Shown piece after piece: positions 14,772-27,113 of a stretch of DNA of 32,614 bases. Position 1 is the stretch's first letter; each line of letters starts with the position of its first letter. Source of the DNA: Bacillota bacterium (GTDB lineage Bacteria > Bacillota_I > Bacilli_A > RFN20 > CAG-826); the NCBI GenBank assembly GCA_030537155.1, contig JAUNOH010000001.1, positions 1-32,614 of the forward strand, written 5' to 3'. The notes under the pieces were generated by a model. That model ran no database searches and was not told the DNA's origin. It saw only the letters and a program-made list of their open reading frames with translations. Both the position numbers and the translations under genes were made by a program.

Positions 14772-14801
14772 ATTATAGTTTCGCCATTCAGTCTAGTCCA
14801 A
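14772..14801 (-). promoter_or_regulatory. uvrA promoter (leaderless type)
   Basis: -10 TATAAT (14772-14777) and -35 TTGGAC (14796-14801) are spaced by 18 bases on minus. The start codon begins 10 bases after the -10, leaving no room for a leader. I see no LexA/SOS box. Confidence 0.6.
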
Positions 14802-14845
14802 GGTTAAGCCCTTTATCTTTTGCTGGAAACCAAGGTGCAGTTGGG

Positions 14846-14851
14846 TATAAT
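14846..14851 (+). promoter_or_regulatory. -10 box of tRNA-Pro
   Basis: A perfect TATAAT lies 9 bases before the mature tRNA 5' end. The -35 is weak (CTGGAA at 14823-14828). The RNA would have almost no 5' extension. Confidence 0.6.
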
Positions 14852-14860
14852 AGTTCGAGC

Positions 14861-14937
14861 CGGGACGTAGCACAGCTTGGTAGTGCGCTACCTTGGGGTG
14901 GTAGAGGTCACGGGTTCGAATCCCGTCGTTCCGACCA
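14861..14937 (+). tRNA. tRNA-Pro (anticodon GGG)
   Basis: This is a full cloverleaf of 77 bases with encoded CCA. The acceptor stem CGGGACG/CGTTCCG has one G-U pair. The D arm is GCAC/GTGC, the anticodon stem CTACC/GGTAG with loop TTGGGGT, and the T arm ACGGG-TTCGAAT-CCCGT. The anticodon GGG reads CCC and CCU. It stands alone between divergent uvrA and the accessory island. Confidence 0.97.
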
Positions 14938-14951
14938 GTTGAACAAATGAG

Positions 14952-14980
14952 TCCTGATGCCTAGGCGTCGGGATTTTTTT
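14952..14980 (+). terminator. tRNA-Pro terminator
   Basis: The stem TCCTGATG/CGTCGGGA with a CCTAGG loop (14952-14973) is followed by T7, 15 bases past the tRNA. Confidence 0.9.
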
Positions 14981-15012
14981 GTTTCCGTGCCATCGTGATG
15001 TTTCCGGGGAGT

Positions 15013-16326
15013 TTAAAAGAACATCGAATAATAAATCGGCATGCACACGATTTTTCCATTAGAGGAAACAATTCGGTCGTTGCTCAGCACATAGCCAAAA
15101 TCGATGTGGTAATTCTGATTGCCGACCAATTTGGGCAATGCCCTGAAATTATGGAAATCCCGTCCGGATTTTATTTCCAGAGGGACAATCGAAAGGGAAT
15201 CGTAGTCATCGATAAGGAAATCGACTTCCCCGACTTTTTTGCTGTCGAAATAGAACAGTTGGTGGCCGTGGGCCTGCAGTTCTTGGGCAACCACGGTTTC
15301 GTAGACTCCGCCCAAGTTGACTCCTCTTTTATCGCTCAAAACCGCCATCACATTGCTTTTGTATAAGGAATTCGTAAGCAGTCCGACGTCATTCATGTAA
15401 AGCTTTATCAGGTTTTTGTGGCTGGATGCCGTCAAAGGAAATTTCGGCTCGCTGACCGCCTGGGTCCCCAAGGCGATGCCGGAGGAGAGCAAATAATCAA
15501 ATTCGTCCGCGTATTTTTGGAATCGGGCGTCGTTGATATCCTCGATGCTCTTGAATTGGATCCTCTTCACTTTGTTGTCGATGTTGGATGGCAGCATCTC
15601 ATAAATACGGCCTATCTTCAATTTGTTTTCGAAATCGTATTTGGAGGCGTCGTCTTTGTAATAGGCGATGGTCTCCTGGTGAATCTCCCTGACCGAAACC
15701 ATGTTCCGCGATTCCAGATATTCGTTGATGGCCGCCGGCAATCCGCCCAACAGCAAATACATCTTGAATAAAGACAGTATCCTTTCATGGAGGGCTTCGT
15801 CTAAAGAGCTCTTTTCTTGGAAACGTTCCCGCATAAAATCTATGACTTCCTTAGAAACGTTGTTCGCCAGCAAAAACTCCTCAAAATCGAGGGGATACAT
15901 TTTGACTTCCCTTATGGAACCCATCGGAATAAGGGTGCTCTTCTTTAAGGCAAGGCCCAATTGGGAACCGCTGCAGATGTATTTAAATCGATTGTCTTCC
16001 GAAAGAGGTTTAAGAAGGGTCAGCAAGTCCGGATATTCCTGAATCTCGTCCAAAAAAATAAGAGTCGATGCCGGATCTTTGGTTTGCTCGCCAAAATAAG
16101 CTCCGAGGACCAAATAAAACGATTCAATGGAATTTACTTTGCCAAAAACGCCGTCTCCGGCTTTGTCGTTGGCCAAGTTGATTTCGACAAAATTCCGATA
16201 ATGTCGTTTGCCAACTTCCCTGATTATGTACGTTTTACCGACTTGGCGGGCCCCATCGATGCACAAAATTCGTTTTGAGTCGTGCGTCAAATACTCGTCG
16301 ATGAATGAAGAAATCTTTCGATACAT
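15013..16326 (-). CDS. AAA ATPase with DUF4143/PD-(D/E)XK-like C-terminus (1)
   Basis: The 437-residue protein belongs to the widespread COG1373-type ATPases of unknown function. Walker A is GARQVGKT (25-32) and Walker B LIFLDEIQ near 90; CSGSQLG near 118 fits a sensor motif. The C-terminal part has EVDFLI near 362 and PLEIKSG near 378, the core pattern of a PD-(D/E)XK nuclease-like fold. Some relatives sit near mobile elements or defence genes, but no activity is established. No Shine-Dalgarno is seen. Its promoter is covered by three phased direct repeats. Another, diverged member is at 24306-25598. Base composition is AT-richer than uvrA, in keeping with an accessory gene. Confidence 0.85.
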   Translation of the reverse strand: MYRKISSFIDEYLTHDSKRILCIDGARQVGKTYIIREVGKRHYRNFVEINLANDKAGDGVFGKVNSIESFYLVLGAYFGEQTKDPASTLIFLDEIQEYPDLLTLLKPLSEDNRFKYICSGSQLGLALKKSTLIPMGSIREVKMYPLDFEEFLLANNVSKEVIDFMRERFQEKSSLDEALHERILSLFKMYLLLGGLPAAINEYLESRNMVSVREIHQETIAYYKDDASKYDFENKLKIGRIYEMLPSNIDNKVKRIQFKSIEDINDARFQKYADEFDYLLSSGIALGTQAVSEPKFPLTASSHKNLIKLYMNDVGLLTNSLYKSNVMAVLSDKRGVNLGGVYETVVAQELQAHGHQLFYFDSKKVGEVDFLIDDYDSLSIVPLEIKSGRDFHNFRALPKLVGNQNYHIDFGYVLSNDRIVSSNGKIVCMPIYYSMFF

Positions 16327-16331
16327 ACTGC

Positions 16332-16415
16332 TTTTTCCCGGTTTTCCATAAAGAGTATAGGGTAATTTTCACGGTTTTCCAATATTTTTGGGCATTGTTT
16401 TTCACGGTTTTCCAA
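16332..16415 (-). promoter_or_regulatory. promoter with three 33-bp-phased direct repeats (ATPase 1)
   Basis: The core CGGTTTTCCA (plus reading) occurs at 16339-16348, 16372-16381 and 16405-16414, exactly 33 bases apart each time, within longer repeats of about 16 bases (TTTTCACGGTTTTCCA). The promoter is -35 TTGGAA (16377-16382), 17 bases, -10 TATACT (16354-16359). Repeat 2 overlaps the -35 and spacer, repeat 1 follows the -10 and repeat 3 lies upstream. This is a good candidate operator array on one face of the helix. Confidence 0.65.
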
Positions 16416-16434
16416 AAATAGGCGTTTGCGGAAC

Positions 16435-16575
16435 TGTACTGGTAACCTAAAAGTAGACACACCTCACCATAAAGTAGACATGCTTCCCTAAATGGGGAGG
16501 CATGCGATAATCGATCCGTAAGGCAAAGGAGGCAGATATGTACCACACGGAAGCCGAGAAGATAGACATAGGGGG
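16435..16575 (+). mobile_element. insertion sequence left-end remnant
   Basis: An end-like TGTACTGG at 16435 is followed by two subterminal repeats AAAGTAGACA (16450-16459 and 16471-16480). A Shine-Dalgarno AAGGAGG then precedes an ATG at 16538 that opens MYHTEAEKID before a stop at once (GGG-stop). This looks like the start of a transposase gene that was cut off. The inner junction with the lipoprotein gene lies somewhere around 16550-16590. The IS family cannot be named with confidence; TGT ends with such repeats are seen in several DDE families (IS3/IS21/IS481-like). Confidence 0.5.
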
Positions 16576-17394
16576 AGGATAGTTCCTCCCCGTTCAGGTC
16601 CTGGGCAAACCAATAAAGGATCTTCTGGGTGTATTCGGAGAGGAAATAGCCAAATTCGGCGTCTTTTTTATATATCCTCTGCCAGGCCGCCAAAGAATAG
16701 GGGTAAATGACGTCGCCCGAGGACGTGGCTATGTAGCCGGAGGCCAATCGGACGATGGAGGGGGCGGTCACATAGAGGTTCCCCTCACCATCCTTGACGT
16801 GGGCGTTCCCATTCACATAGGTGGTGTTGAAGGCGGCGTCCATCGACCCGAAGGTCAAATCATCGATCTCCTCGTCATAGCCCTCGCAGGCCGCCTCAAA
16901 GGAGGCATAGGCCAAACCATACGAGCCATATTGCATGCTGAGTCCATAGCTCTCCGCTTCGTAGTTGGTGTAAATGCGGTAATCGGAGGTGTCGTGGCCG
17001 ATGAAATAAGTTTCCTTCCCGTTCGACTCTATCTCGTATCCCCCGTTTAGGGAGGAGCTCTCGCTGTTTTGATATTCGCGGACGGCAACCCGATTTTTAT
17101 AGAGGGTCAGGGTCTCACTATTGGAGATTTTGCTATATCCCCCATATCCGCCATAGGCCTCCCCATAGAGGGCTCCTTCGTCGCTCTCGATGGTGGACTC
17201 TAGGCTATAGGAAGGAGATTGCTCCGATTCGCGGAGGCCTCGACCAGAATATTCTCATACTCCTTGTGGCCGATCGTGACGCCATCGGGGTTAGTGAAGT
17301 CTTCGAACGTTATGCTTTGGGTGCCGTTTCCGTTACAGCCGAAAAGGCAGAAGGCGGATGCGCCCACGATGAGCAAACTCAGTTTTTTATCCAT
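16575..17394 (-). pseudogene. broken lipoprotein gene (frameshift and 3' truncation)
   Basis: An ATG at 17394 with a purine-rich ribosome site starts a lipoprotein signal: MDKKLSLLIVGASAFCLFGC, lipobox cysteine at residue 20. The frame reaches a stop near 17200. About 10 codons before that, near 17215-17230, the coding continues in another frame (ESEQSPSYSLESTIESDEG, then tyrosine- and glycine-rich sequence) down to about 16575, where it runs into the IS remnant. So there is one frameshift and a lost C-terminus. The protein was a secreted lipoprotein of at least 270 residues with no recognised domain. A frame starting at 16936 is only an internal part of this gene. Confidence 0.65.
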
Positions 17395-17690
17395 AAACGT
17401 CCCTTTCCTTTTGCGATGAATATCTCATTATGCCAGTTATCCGCTTTTGGGAAAGCTTTTAAAAATCTCTCCAAGTAGCCACGGACAGGTTAATTCTAAG
17501 ATACAAATAGAGGGCAGACGCTGAACCAAACTATACTCTGCATAAGGACTCCCTTCATTGCTATGGGAGTTATTTTGGGAATATGCAAAGCTCGACCCTT
17601 TCTCTTCGGGGCTTAAATCCCGAAATTATTGTTTATTCCCCCCAGCAAATGTTGTCTTTCAGCATTTACTGTGGCAAATCGACATAAAAA
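17395..17690. other. intergenic, small hairpins, no gene seen
   Basis: The lipoprotein promoter may be CATAAT preceded by TG near 17430-17440 on minus. Two hairpins are visible: ACTCCC..GGGAGT (about 17547-17570), followed on plus by TATTTT, and TTCGGG..CCCGAA (about 17604-17624). A plus-strand TATACT lies shortly before the first hairpin. No open frame of note is present. Confidence 0.4.
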
Positions 17691-18023
17691 TTACCAAGAG
17701 CTAAGAATTTCCTTCAAGGCCGGCATATCTTTTGTAAGGACTTCGTAGATCACTCCAAAATCAACATTCCCATAATCATGAACGATTCTGTTTCTCAGAC
17801 CAAAAAGCATACCCCACGGCACATCTTTACGCTGTTGCCTAAATTCCTCCGAAAGTTTCTTCGAGCTTTCAGAAATCTGAATCATCCTAAACATCATCGA
17901 ATCCATAAGCATTTCGTTACGCTCAAGAGCTTCGATTGAGACACCTTTCATCTGCTTTTCGATGTATTCGACGTCTTTCCTTATTTTTGCCAAAAAATAG
18001 TTATCGCCCTTGGTGTTATCCAT
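17691..18023 (-). CDS. hepT: HepT-like HEPN ribonuclease toxin
   Basis: The 110-residue all-helical protein fits the HepT (DUF86) toxin of type VII toxin-antitoxin systems. The active-site motif R-x4-H-x-Y is present as RNRIVHDY (R77, H82, Y84). In characterised pairs R and H cleave RNA and the tyrosine is the residue AMPylated by the partner MntA. The start overlaps the mntA stop by 8 bases, so antitoxin is made first. It looks intact. The surrounding DNA is AT-richer than the core genes, consistent with transfer. Confidence 0.88.
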   Translation of the reverse strand: MDNTKGDNYFLAKIRKDVEYIEKQMKGVSIEALERNEMLMDSMMFRMIQISESSKKLSEEFRQQRKDVPWGMLFGLRNRIVHDYGNVDFGVIYEVLTKDMPALKEILSSW

Positions 18024-18489
18024 ATATTTTGATCCCGTCTTTTAGAATCTCTTTCGTCAACTCAAGATTGCCTTTTAGCTGATTTATATCCAAGCCATCC
18101 ACCTTTTTGTGAAGGGCCTCCCGCAATTCTTCTATAAGCCCAAAAAATCTTAGGCCCTTTATTTCCGAACAGATAAGCAAATCCACGTCGCTTTCAGGCG
18201 TGGCCTTGTTTTTGGCATAAGACCCGAAAAGATAGCAGAAATCAACGTCATATTTTTTCAAAATTGGTTCTGAGATGGCTTTTATGTCTTTAAGCTCAAG
18301 GAGTCCGTGCTCCTCATCCAGCGGATATGTAGTCTTAATGAGATCAATTAGATATTTATATTTCAATGTCCCGACCTTATTCGCATCGTTCTCATAACTT
18401 TTATAGGAACGAAGCGAAATACCGGCGAGCTCGGCCGCTTCTTTTTGAGTCAGCTTATTCTCGGTTCTGATTTGCTTCAGCGCTTCCAT
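18016..18489 (-). CDS. mntA: MntA-like nucleotidyltransferase antitoxin fused to XRE helix-turn-helix
   Basis: The 157-residue protein has an N-terminal Cro/CI-type DNA-binding domain (residues about 1-55: NKLTQKEAAELAGISLRSYKSYE) and a C-terminal minimal nucleotidyltransferase domain with G-S-x10-D-x-D (G89, S90, D101, D103). MntA enzymes neutralise HepT by adding AMP to its tyrosine. The start is the ATG at 18489: an in-frame ATG at 18510 overlaps the -10 box and cannot be in the mRNA. AAGGTG, part of a promoter repeat, serves as ribosome site. The fused HTH suggests self-repression through the repeats upstream. Confidence 0.88.
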   Translation of the reverse strand: MEALKQIRTENKLTQKEAAELAGISLRSYKSYENDANKVGTLKYKYLIDLIKTTYPLDEEHGLLELKDIKAISEPILKKYDVDFCYLFGSYAKNKATPESDVDLLICSEIKGLRFFGLIEELREALHKKVDGLDINQLKGNLELTKEILKDGIKIYG

Positions 18490-18563
18490 TTTTTGCACCT
18501 TCGCAAACATTATAGTGCAATTTTTGCACCTTTCAAATAATTAATGGGCAATTTTTGCACCTT
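18489..18563 (-). promoter_or_regulatory. mntA-hepT promoter with three 31-bp-phased repeats
   Basis: The promoter is -35 TTGAAA (18531-18536), 16 bases, -10 TATAAT (18509-18514). The repeat TTTTTGCACCTT (plus reading) occurs at 18490-18501, 18521-18532 and 18552-18563, exactly 31 bases apart. The middle copy extends to a 15-base dyad GTGCAA-TTT-TTGCAC lying in the spacer. The copy nearest the gene overlaps the ribosome binding site. This is the expected place for autoregulation by the HTH-bearing antitoxin. Confidence 0.7.
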
Positions 18564-24183: not shown

Positions 24184-24291
24184 TTATTCCGGAAAAACAT
24201 AGCATGCTAACGAAATCAGGAATATACGCTAGCCAATTAACGCCGAACGTCATATACTTATTCCGGAAAAACATAGCATGCTAACGAAATC
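24184..24291 (+). repeat. two exact 34-bp direct repeats upstream of ATPase 2
   Basis: Identical 34-base copies (24184-24217 and 24258-24291) start 74 bases apart. Each contains the palindromes TTCCGGAA and TAGCATGCTA. The second copy runs almost into the Shine-Dalgarno GGAGG (24293-24297). A TATACT (24253-24258) lies between the copies, so the repeats flank the promoter. They are probably operator sites for ATPase 2. Confidence 0.75.
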
Positions 24292-24305
24292 CGGAGGACA
24301 AAATA

Positions 24306-25598
24306 ATGGAAACGATTAAGCGGGATTACTACCTCAACCAGTTGATCAACAAAAGGGGCAACGGTTTAGTCAAAGTCATAACCGGAGTCCGCCGGTGCGG
24401 CAAAAGCTTCCTCTTATTCAATCTGTATCGCGATTATCTGCTCTCCTCTGGGGTTGAGGAAGACGACATCATCACCTTGTCGTTGGACGAAAACCGAAAC
24501 ATCCAATATAGGGATGTCGATAAACTTTCCGAATTCATCTATTCGAAAATCAAAGACGAGAAGATGCATTATCTGTTGCTCGACGAAGCCCAATTCGCGA
24601 TTAAGGAGGAAGAGCTTAAGGCAAATGAGCCAATCCGCCTATATGGCCTGCTAAACGAGTTGATGCACAAAGGCAACATCGACATTTACATAACGGGGAG
24701 CAATTCGAGATTCCTATCTTCCGACATCCTCACCGAATTCCGCGGACGGAGCGATAACGTCAACGTCCACCCGCTCTCATTCTCGGAATTCATGAGCGCA
24801 TACGAAGGAAACGAGGTCACCGGCTATCAGGAATACTCCGTCTATGGCGGGTTGCCCATGATCCTCCAAAGAAAATCCCCTCAGGAGAAATCAAATTATC
24901 TGAAATCGCTTTTTGATACCGTTTATATCAGGGACATCATAGAAAGACACGGCCTTAGGGAGGATGCCCTCGTTATAGATACGCTGACCGACATCCTTGC
25001 CTCTTCGATAGGCTCGCTCAGCAATCCGAGCAAACTAGCCAAAACCTTTAAATCCAACCAAATCAAGGCAGACGATAAAACCATCGCCTCCTACATAAAA
25101 TATCTGGAGGACTCCTTCCTGATCCATGAGGTAAAAAGATATGACGTGAAGGGGAAAAAATACATCTCAACCCCAAACAAATATTATTTCGAAGACATAG
25201 GGCTACGAAATGCCAGGCTCAATTTCCGGCAACTGGAGCCCACCCACGCCATGGAAAACATCATCTATAACGAGTTGCTCATCCGCGGCTTCGATGTGGA
25301 CGTCGGCCAGGTGAATCAGTATTCGCGGGACGCGGACAAGAAACAGGTAGTCAAAAAACTCGAAGTGGACTTTGTCTGCAATCTCGGCGATGTAAGGTAT
25401 TATATCCAATCCGCTTTCGCCATACCCAATCAGGACAAAATGAGGCAGGAGCAGCTTTCCCTGGACAAAATCAACGACAATTTCAAAAAGATCTTGGTGG
25501 TGGGTGATCCCTTGACCCCAACCCATTACGACGAGAAGGGCTATCTGATCACCAACATCTACGATTTCCTTTTAAAGAAAGACATCTTGGGGCTTTGA
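24306..25598 (+). CDS. AAA ATPase with DUF4143/PD-(D/E)XK-like C-terminus (2)
   Basis: The 430-residue protein is of the same broad COG1373-type family as the one at 15013-16326, but clearly diverged. Walker A is GVRRCGKS (27-34) and Walker B LLLDEAQ near 95, with ITGSNSR near 131. The C-terminal nuclease-like core is LEVDFVCN near 354 and YYIQSAF near 364. Function is unknown. It is the only plus-strand protein gene I accept in the window. It has a good GGAGG 8 bases before the ATG and two long direct repeats across its promoter. The lower GC and odd orientation suggest acquisition. Confidence 0.88.
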   Translation: METIKRDYYLNQLINKRGNGLVKVITGVRRCGKSFLLFNLYRDYLLSSGVEEDDIITLSLDENRNIQYRDVDKLSEFIYSKIKDEKMHYLLLDEAQFAIKEEELKANEPIRLYGLLNELMHKGNIDIYITGSNSRFLSSDILTEFRGRSDNVNVHPLSFSEFMSAYEGNEVTGYQEYSVYGGLPMILQRKSPQEKSNYLKSLFDTVYIRDIIERHGLREDALVIDTLTDILASSIGSLSNPSKLAKTFKSNQIKADDKTIASYIKYLEDSFLIHEVKRYDVKGKKYISTPNKYYFEDIGLRNARLNFRQLEPTHAMENIIYNELLIRGFDVDVGQVNQYSRDADKKQVVKKLEVDFVCNLGDVRYYIQSAFAIPNQDKMRQEQLSLDKINDNFKKILVVGDPLTPTHYDEKGYLITNIYDFLLKKDILGL

Positions 25599-26285: not shown

Positions 26286-27113
26286 TTAGTCTTTTTCGTT
26301 ATTTTCCAGCAAAAGCTTGGAATCGCTCCGTTCCAATACCCTTAGTTGCGACCTCGCCATGGCGTTTAGCTGCAACAGCCTTTCCCTTTGGGGCAGCTTC
26401 TGCTCAATCAATATGGCGTTATAGCTTTCCATGTTCGCGATGACAAGGAGCTGATGGATGGAGGCGTAGTCGCGCATGTTCCCCTTCTTTTCAGGGTTCA
26501 GCTTCCTCCACTGCCCGGCCGTCATGCCGAACAGGGCGACGTTGAGCAGATCGGCCTCGTCCGCATAGACGAACCTCAGCTGCTCCTCGGTCAGGGTAGG
26601 GACGATGTTCTCCTTGATGGCGTCGGTATGGATGCGGTAGTTGACCTTGGCCAGCTCGCGCTTGGAATCCCATTCTAGTCCCTTGGCCTCTTCCGCCTTT
26701 AGGCGCTGGAACTCTTTTATTAAATAGAGCTCGAATTCCACCGAAATCCAGCTCGCGAACTTGAAGGCGATGTCCTTGTGGGCATACGTCCCACCATAAC
26801 GCCCCGTACTGGAAATAAGCCCAATCGCCCCGGTTTTTTCTATCCAATCCTGCGCGGTCAAGACAAAGGAATTTTCTCCTGCTTGGCTTCTAATGTTACC
26901 AAATTCGGTTACATTAAAATCGGGGTTGTTCAAGCTTTCCCAGAGACCGAGATACTGAATGGTGGAAATCGTTCTTAGCCAATGGGCGATGACGAGGCCC
27001 GTATGCTTCGGGTTCTTCGCTTTCGCCATATCCGTAATGCAAATATAATCTTCCCCGTTTGCCTTTTTATAGCGGATCCCAAATCCCTGCACTTCAACTT
27101 CTTTATTAGTCAT
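26286..27113 (-). CDS. KilA-N domain protein
   Basis: The 275-residue protein has an N-terminal KilA-N domain (about residues 10-145: YICITDMAKAKN, then TGRYGGTYAHKDIAFKFASW and EFELYLIKEFQRLK), a DNA-binding module common in phages, large DNA viruses and bacterial accessory regions. The C-terminal part is helical and unknown, with AGQWRKLNPEKKGNMRDYAS. A TATAAT (27165-27170) lies 51 bases upstream and an AGGGG 5 bases before the ATG. Its role, whether regulator or defence-linked, cannot be told from sequence. No phage structural genes are nearby. Confidence 0.85.
   Translation of the reverse strand: MTNKEVEVQGFGIRYKKANGEDYICITDMAKAKNPKHTGLVIAHWLRTISTIQYLGLWESLNNPDFNVTEFGNIRSQAGENSFVLTAQDWIEKTGAIGLISSTGRYGGTYAHKDIAFKFASWISVEFELYLIKEFQRLKAEEAKGLEWDSKRELAKVNYRIHTDAIKENIVPTLTEEQLRFVYADEADLLNVALFGMTAGQWRKLNPEKKGNMRDYASIHQLLVIANMESYNAILIEQKLPQRERLLQLNAMARSQLRVLERSDSKLLLENNEKD

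Follow-up and report, generated by a model that had tools for sequence, protein, structure and literature searches.

A 33-bp-spaced repeat array across the promoter of a DUF4143 (PDC-S01) ATPase gene, recurring with private motifs in the related genes, as a probable binding array of the ATPase itself

Archaeal Orc1/Cdc6 proteins, which join an AAA+ domain to a winged helix, have their cognate origin boxes beside their own gene, and plasmid Rep proteins, which carry a winged helix, have cognate iterons beside theirs. MalT boxes are phased direct repeats bound by MalT, which activates other operons through one motif. The ATPases described here are comparable to Orc1/Cdc6 in combining an AAA+ core with a possible winged helix, and to Rep in the latter, with putative cognate repeats placed by the own gene as in both; they differ in occurring in many copies per genome and in having a nuclease-like domain. 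MalT, a STAND-type ATPase whose assembly is driven by ATP (PMC4381067) and takes place on repeated sites, may be a further likeness; the present case differs from it by a separate motif for every gene lineage and by the location of the array at the own promoter. Promoter binding is also reported for mycobacterial IniR, whose AAA+ domain has been compared with SSO1545 (PMC5760070); according to the same source, this protein is longer (818 aa), has other C-terminal domains and acts on iniBAC, not on an array of its own. PDC-S01 is presented in a 2026 survey as a fusion of an ATPase with a PD-(D/E)XK member and is ranked there fourth in frequency among prokaryotic defences, experimental validation being stated as pending for most PDCs (PMC12988326). 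Promoter arrays are not mentioned for PDC-S01 in the accessible portions of that survey and of PMC13356809, and the literature searched, with preprints and most subscription papers outside its scope, contained no description of arrays of DUF4143/PDC-S01 ATPases. The arrays would be a variant of known autoregulated operator arrays, their scale, private motifs and fixed pitch being the new traits.

The window, as the whole analysed stretch of 32,614 nucleotides from a Bacillota genome is called here, contains a DUF4143 ATPase gene on the minus strand. Upstream of it, three 17-bp copies of a direct repeat follow each other on the minus strand in exact 33-bp steps, across its promoter:

15013..16326, minus strand: DUF4143 / AAA_14 ATPase gene, 437 aa, PADLOC PDC-S01 (Pfam and PADLOC profiles)
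16333..16349, minus strand: array copy 3 (innermost), ATGGAAAACCGGGAAAA, with two changes against the other copies
16354..16359, minus strand: -10 hexamer TATACT (promoter scan), after a 17-bp spacer from the -35
16366..16382, minus strand: array copy 2, TTGGAAAACCGTGAAAA; the -35 hexamer makes up its first six bases
16377..16382, minus strand: -35 hexamer TTGGAA (promoter scan)
16399..16415, minus strand: array copy 1 (outermost), TTGGAAAACCGTGAAAA

An earlier, sequence-only reading of this DNA had described three direct repeats at this spacing; all three cores CGGTTTTCCA were indeed found mismatch-free, at 16339, 16372 and 16405. In register, the copies form 24-nt families starting at 16332, 16365 and 16398, with spacings of 33 and 33. 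The promoter scan returned, on the minus strand, the same two hexamers that had been named by that reading. Copy 3 lies between the -10 and the start codon, over the transcription start expected from the -10. The claim that all copies lie on one face of the DNA stands only approximately: with 10.5 bp to a turn, the equal spacing of 33 bp corresponds to about 3.14 turns, which leaves each copy about 50 degrees round the helix from the one before.

A single core means little, because about 2.7 chance occurrences of the 10-mer with one mismatch are expected in the window. The spaced pair has no second occurrence in the 1.33-Mb genome (reversed control: 0), and among 392 genomes of the phylum it was matched in this genome alone. 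The 17-mer, at up to two mismatches, occurs in the own genome at the three array copies and at one lone site (C8:119332), which by our own reading lies within the first codons of another gene. Over positions 14800-17700, Rfam matched a tRNA-Pro and no other known structured RNA, and none of the seven window proteins searched against Pfam was a Cas protein.

The ATPase matches the Pfam families AAA_14 (87.8 bits, cut-off 27) and DUF4143 (81.6 bits, cut-off 28.1), in both cases above the curated cut-off, and the PADLOC PDC-S01 profile PDLC04792 (E = 1.2e-163, residues 1-437). By this full-length match it belongs to PADLOC's PDC-S01, a single-gene candidate defence of DUF4143 / COG1373 ATPases, and is a candidate phage-defence ATPase, the defence role being a database assignment. 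NCBIfam gave no family for it, and no solved structure was found by sequence search at E up to 1. In its AlphaFold model (mean pLDDT 88.8, pTM 0.89), a predicted AAA+ core is followed by a helical part, then by a segment with the topology of a winged helix, and at the C-terminus by an alpha/beta domain:

15862..16326, minus strand: AAA+ core, residues 1-155 (alignment and AlphaFold model)
15631..15861, minus strand: helical region, residues 156-232 (AlphaFold model)
15391..15630, minus strand: winged-helix-like segment, residues 233-312 (model topology H235-250, H259-262, H273-282, E285-291, E307-311)
15016..15390, minus strand: PD-(D/E)XK-like nuclease domain, residues 313-437 (alignment, model and fold matches)

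Walker A GARQxGK and DEIQ are invariant in 30/30 aligned homologues, and so are the PD-(D/E)XK residues E343, E367/D369 and E384-x-K386. The solved structures nearest to the model are archaeal PABY2304 (2qen; Z 16.7, rmsd 4.7, 272 aligned) and SSO1545 (2fna; Z 15.6, rmsd 4.6, 272 aligned), both matching model residues 1-322; these proteins are shorter (350 and 352 residues), and the alignment stops before the nuclease domain. They head the list of fold matches together with CED-4 and plant NLRs, followed by AAA+ proteins of the ORC type; the matches include Cdc6/Orc1 in complex with origin DNA. The last 206 residues (232-437), modelled apart (pLDDT 86.5), gave matches of middling Z to Can1 (6sce; Z 7.6, rmsd 3.9, 125 aligned) and further to the nucleases Can2, McrC and Hjc (Z 5.4). 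On residues and fold, the C-terminal domain is a predicted nuclease of the PD-(D/E)XK-like type. Residues 233-312 may be winged-helix-like, by their H-H-H-E-E topology and by weak structure matches, the Foldseek rows being limited to MarR-type proteins with E about 0.5-1. The remark of the sequence-only reading that the ATPase has no visible DNA-binding domain does not hold well against this predicted topology and the PD-(D/E)XK-like domain next to it.

Homologous loci (56, with 27-64% identity and one fragment at 49%, from Bacilli, Clostridia, Bacteroidales, Spirochaetales and others) were analyzed by taking the best self-match of the upstream 220 bp at lags of 18-60. The test was performed on 53 of them: L037 and L072 were left out for a missing start and L077 as a fragment, and the identical L029 and L030 were both retained. 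The best lag was 31-34 in 53/53, with at least 12/14 matches in 51, and 128 other ORF upstreams from the same loci showed no preferred lag. A search upstream of other DUF4143 ATPase genes, which had been suggested as a check, is hence positive: the related loci have repeats. After clustering 140 loci (53 + 66 + 21) at 70% protein identity, a strong 31-34 bp array (at least 12/14) is present in 68/79 lineages, versus 1/128 control gene upstreams.

Homologues occur in 30/31 genomes of the window's genus; 66 of 69 fetched loci were used, three being dropped for a short upstream region, and 55/66 reach 12/14, 54 of these 55 at lag 32-34. Among plasmid and phage records, 81 had a match and 12 loci were fetched, nine of which have a best lag of 32-33; in L084, the tenth, a 33-bp pair can be made out by eye, and L086 and L093 show no array. 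Array hosts in this sample include Acinetobacter, Vibrio, Glaesserella, Criblamydia, Segatella and Collinsella. In viral contigs, 13/25 loci (25 of 26 used) show lag 32-33 with at least 12/14 matches. All together the arrays are spread over Bacillota, Bacteroidota, Actinomycetota, Pseudomonadota and Chlamydiota. L029 and L030 come from separate contigs of a single metagenome-assembled genome and agree in every one of the 6311 bases compared, including the flanks. This points to a contig present in duplicate or to duplication of a large stretch; with identical flanks, the pair gave no evidence of a mobile unit.

A third copy, where present (60/147 tests, on loci with at least 13/14), is 0.87 identical in the core and 0.47 in the spacer; the core being kept and the spacer diverged, the copies look like binding sites and not like a recent duplication. 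Neutral tandem duplication would produce copies in register, as observed, but it is refuted by the diverged spacers between conserved cores and by the recurrence of the same spacing on unrelated motifs (in the 68/79 lineages), and its weight is negligible. The strict step of 32-33 bp, without alternatives of 21 or 42 bp, suggests for the 33-bp subtype more than an alignment of sites along one helix side, namely a protein lattice with a fixed pitch.

Motif and protein similarity were compared over 115/132 loci (array at least 12/14, protein longer than 380 aa). The motif diversifies together with the protein: orthologues share a motif (L109-L112 with L130; L131-L133; L116 with L117), and paralogues have different motifs, even within one genome. 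Mean motif similarity is 0.70 for proteins more than 80% identical, 0.54 at 60-80%, 0.37 at 45-60% and 0.28-0.31, the background value, below 45% (Mantel p = 0.002, 499 permutations). The paralogues L137 and L154, 63% identical and from the same genome (G387), have unlike motifs with a GTGTA end in common, and judged by this pair the motif seems bipartite, one half being variable and the other constant. In a per-column specificity scan, 24 of the top 30 columns fell in the winged-helix or C-terminal parts and 2 in the AAA part, a hint only, as the scan has no null model.

Where tested, the arrays are restricted to ATPase promoters. The Lachnospiraceae-type motif pair is present in 13/15 genomes tested, and all its 20 places, compared with the ATPase locus ranges, are ATPase promoters. 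In the own genome, the nearest matches to three motifs, those of the window ATPase, L016 and L017, sit in their own arrays: the L017 motif, at up to 2 mismatches, is confined to its array, and the L016 motif has its 0-1 mismatch sites solely in its own, plus seven scattered sites with 2 mismatches. For paralogues of one genome with less than 45% identity, a test for cross-talk avoidance showed no difference (0.298 for 69 pairs versus 0.295 for 1479 pairs); same-genome pairs above 45% are three only. A search of viral contigs with two strict array patterns, for arrays as phage targets, gave 0 matches, a weak result, as mismatches were disallowed.

These data bear on the identity of the reader. 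Operators usually serve separate repressors, and a separate host regulator binding the repeats would be the ordinary case; here, however, the motif differs between paralogues of one genome and such a reader would need to change with each gene, which makes this explanation highly improbable. As the motif is private to each lineage and gene, its reader must change with the gene, and the ATPase is the obvious candidate; co-diversification with every ATPase seems beyond the reach of any other protein. The sequence-only reading had suggested that the binding protein might be the ATPase itself, a proposal supported by the lag of 31-34 in 53/53 loci and by the motif changing with the protein, binding itself being what we infer from them.

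The explanation proposed here, to which we assign a probability of roughly two in three, is that the ATPase binds its own array in the form of an oligomer with a constant step and regulates the promoter of its gene, here probably as a repressor. The repeats would be the private recognition array of the ATPase downstream; the protein, with its AAA+ core and its winged-helix-like and PD-(D/E)XK-like parts, would bind each copy and oligomerise along the DNA, one unit per 32-33 bp. The bound oligomer would most likely repress the window gene, because the array overlies the -35 and the region between transcription start and start codon, and a potentially harmful nuclease would so be kept at a low level. 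A repeat sequence of its own for each lineage would keep the circuits of many paralogues (18 DUF4143 genes in this genome) from crossing.

The position of the copies relative to the promoter bears on the direction of control. In the window clade (L022-L029, L031 and L036; the duplicate L030 left out) the -35 hexamer lies within a copy, 17 bp before the -10, in 10/10 loci. Of the 99 loci tested in all, a sample without the Bacteroidota type and a few more, 47 have copies that overlap a promoter hexamer, fewer than the 59 expected by random placement, so that hexamer cover is no general rule. Many loci of the Lachnospiraceae type have their array upstream of the -35, an arrangement that would also suit an activator. 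The ATPase could then bind its own array and activate the promoter, in the manner of MalT, or switch with its nucleotide state; the array just upstream of the -35 in many loci, the absence of hexamer overlap above random and the STAND-type proteins among the fold relatives are in keeping with this. In the window and its closest relatives, however, copies occupy the -35 and the interval from the -10 to the start codon, where a bound protein normally blocks transcription, and we consider activation or such a switch unlikely.

One family array has seven copies, beyond the need of a simple operator. This, together with the invariant nuclease residues (30/30) and the standing of PDC-S01 as a candidate defence family of ATPases with a nuclease-like domain, would fit an array that serves as a parking or self-recognition site of an inactive nuclease, which would be set free or given a new target once a phage interferes with DNA or transcription, transcription control being secondary. 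Since the arrays sit at the promoter, and defence and array-controlled nuclease action are purely hypothetical here, we judge this quite unlikely.

The surroundings of the array include two further features:

14861..14937, plus strand: tRNA-Pro (ggg), by the 3' end of the ATPase gene
16434..16587, no strand assigned: relic of an IS3-family element end, outside the array and with its tip at about 16435

The tRNA-Pro gene lies 76 bp from the end of the ATPase gene. In many genomes of the genus uvrA and tRNA-Pro are neighbours, and, as 0 of 29 uvrA/tRNA loci from other genomes have a homologue of the window ATPase inside the fetched stretch, the latter looks like an accessory gene at the uvrA/tRNA-Pro site. 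G270 and G387 do have a homologue next to the tRNA match, but the uvrA match is several kilobases away from it. Upstream of the window ATPase, at 17691-18510, there is a pair of HepT-like and HTH-nucleotidyltransferase genes, likely a toxin-antitoxin system. A KilA-N domain protein, of a kind common in phages, is encoded at 26286-27113, near the second ATPase of the window.

The IS3-family tip was found at 26 places in 31 genomes of the genus, 14 of which are directly upstream of an ATPase, with the tip towards the array and 108-230 bp before the start codon. A second IS3-like tip was found at 6 places in 30 Clostridia-type genomes, 6/6 upstream of an ATPase, and the orientation is the same in all 20 ATPase-side tips (tip loci include L253-L282). 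A rough chance estimate gives about 0.02 of the 26 tips (about 140 ATPases, 250 bp each, in about 47.7 Mb); independent events are fewer than the counts, because some tips are orthologous (L137/L141; L096 and the orthologue of a split gene). Tips at outer array edges often lack the rest of the element. Eight examined tips have transposase matches inside: six are not upstream of a found ATPase (L251, L257, L262, L264, L266, L271), and two, which are short remnants, are (L258, L268). At L248 (G387:C3:242600-244600) the ATPase gene is split, with the array and the IS3 tip still upstream.

The tips at the outer edge of arrays, always in one orientation, could mean that the repeats are themselves transposon ends or landing sites. 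But most arrays have no tip, the loose tip pattern being found in 8/66 genus and 3/52 related upstreams, array sequences differ next to one and the same tip, and the fuller IS3-family copy on contig C30, complete with its transposase, has no 33-bp array. The array as part of the IS3-family element, or of an adjacent mobile element as the sequence-only reading had considered, is rejected on this copy; the transposon reading of the array itself is largely excluded and improbable. The association of tips with arrays may be due to insertion targeted by an array-bound AAA+ protein, this being one reading among others, which include selection and one-ended mobilisation.

The own genome has 18 DUF4143 genes; direct repeats of at least 15/16 lie upstream of 11 of them, versus 5/128 controls. 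The remaining seven (L003, L004, L005, L011, L014, L019, L020) show no clear upstream repeats, so that the rule holds for subtypes and not for all DUF4143 proteins. Array layout goes with subtype. The 33-bp layout is found in L009 (the window ATPase), L016 and L017, which are the three genes retrieved by searching the own genome with the window ATPase at E 1e-20; repeats at 23 bp or its double are found in L006 and L007, with a second pair seen by eye in L008; long repeat pairs, 67-75 bp apart, are found in L010, L012, L013 and L015, and the three of these that were tested (L010, L012, L015) are of the PDLC04787 type. L012 is the second DUF4143 ATPase of the window:

24184..24221, plus strand: first 38-nt repeat upstream of the second ATPase
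24258..24295, plus strand: second 38-nt repeat, 74 bp on and 97% identical
24306..25598, plus strand: second DUF4143 ATPase, another PDC-S01 subtype (Pfam and PADLOC profiles)

The divergent ATPase genes L008 and L018 have a common intergenic 33-bp array, GGAAAAGTGTAATTTT, which may belong to either; L018 has additional 44-bp repeats.

A bolder view, which we hold to be rather unlikely, is that PDC-S01 ATPases are a large set of mutually insulated DNA readers, each lineage reading its own array with a rigid step of 32-33 bp (23 bp, or paired long repeats 67-75 bp apart, in other subtypes), in which an array-bound AAA+ filament would restrain the nuclease domain while sensing the condition of the cell's DNA or transcription, and would also serve as a landing beacon for IS3-family transposons, comparably to TnsC and IstB.

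The results point to a feature that is family-wide in an abundant protein family with an otherwise unexplained role, and the changing motifs suggest that each protein may read its own private DNA address. For each of many PDC-S01 genes, the array offers a ready-made DNA substrate that can be read off the genome. If the proposed explanation is true, the family would supply from nature a large number of orthogonal DNA-binding ATPases whose sites are known, from which a recognition code could be worked out, and the spacing of each subtype (23, 32-33 or 67-75 bp) would report the geometry of its protein lattice.
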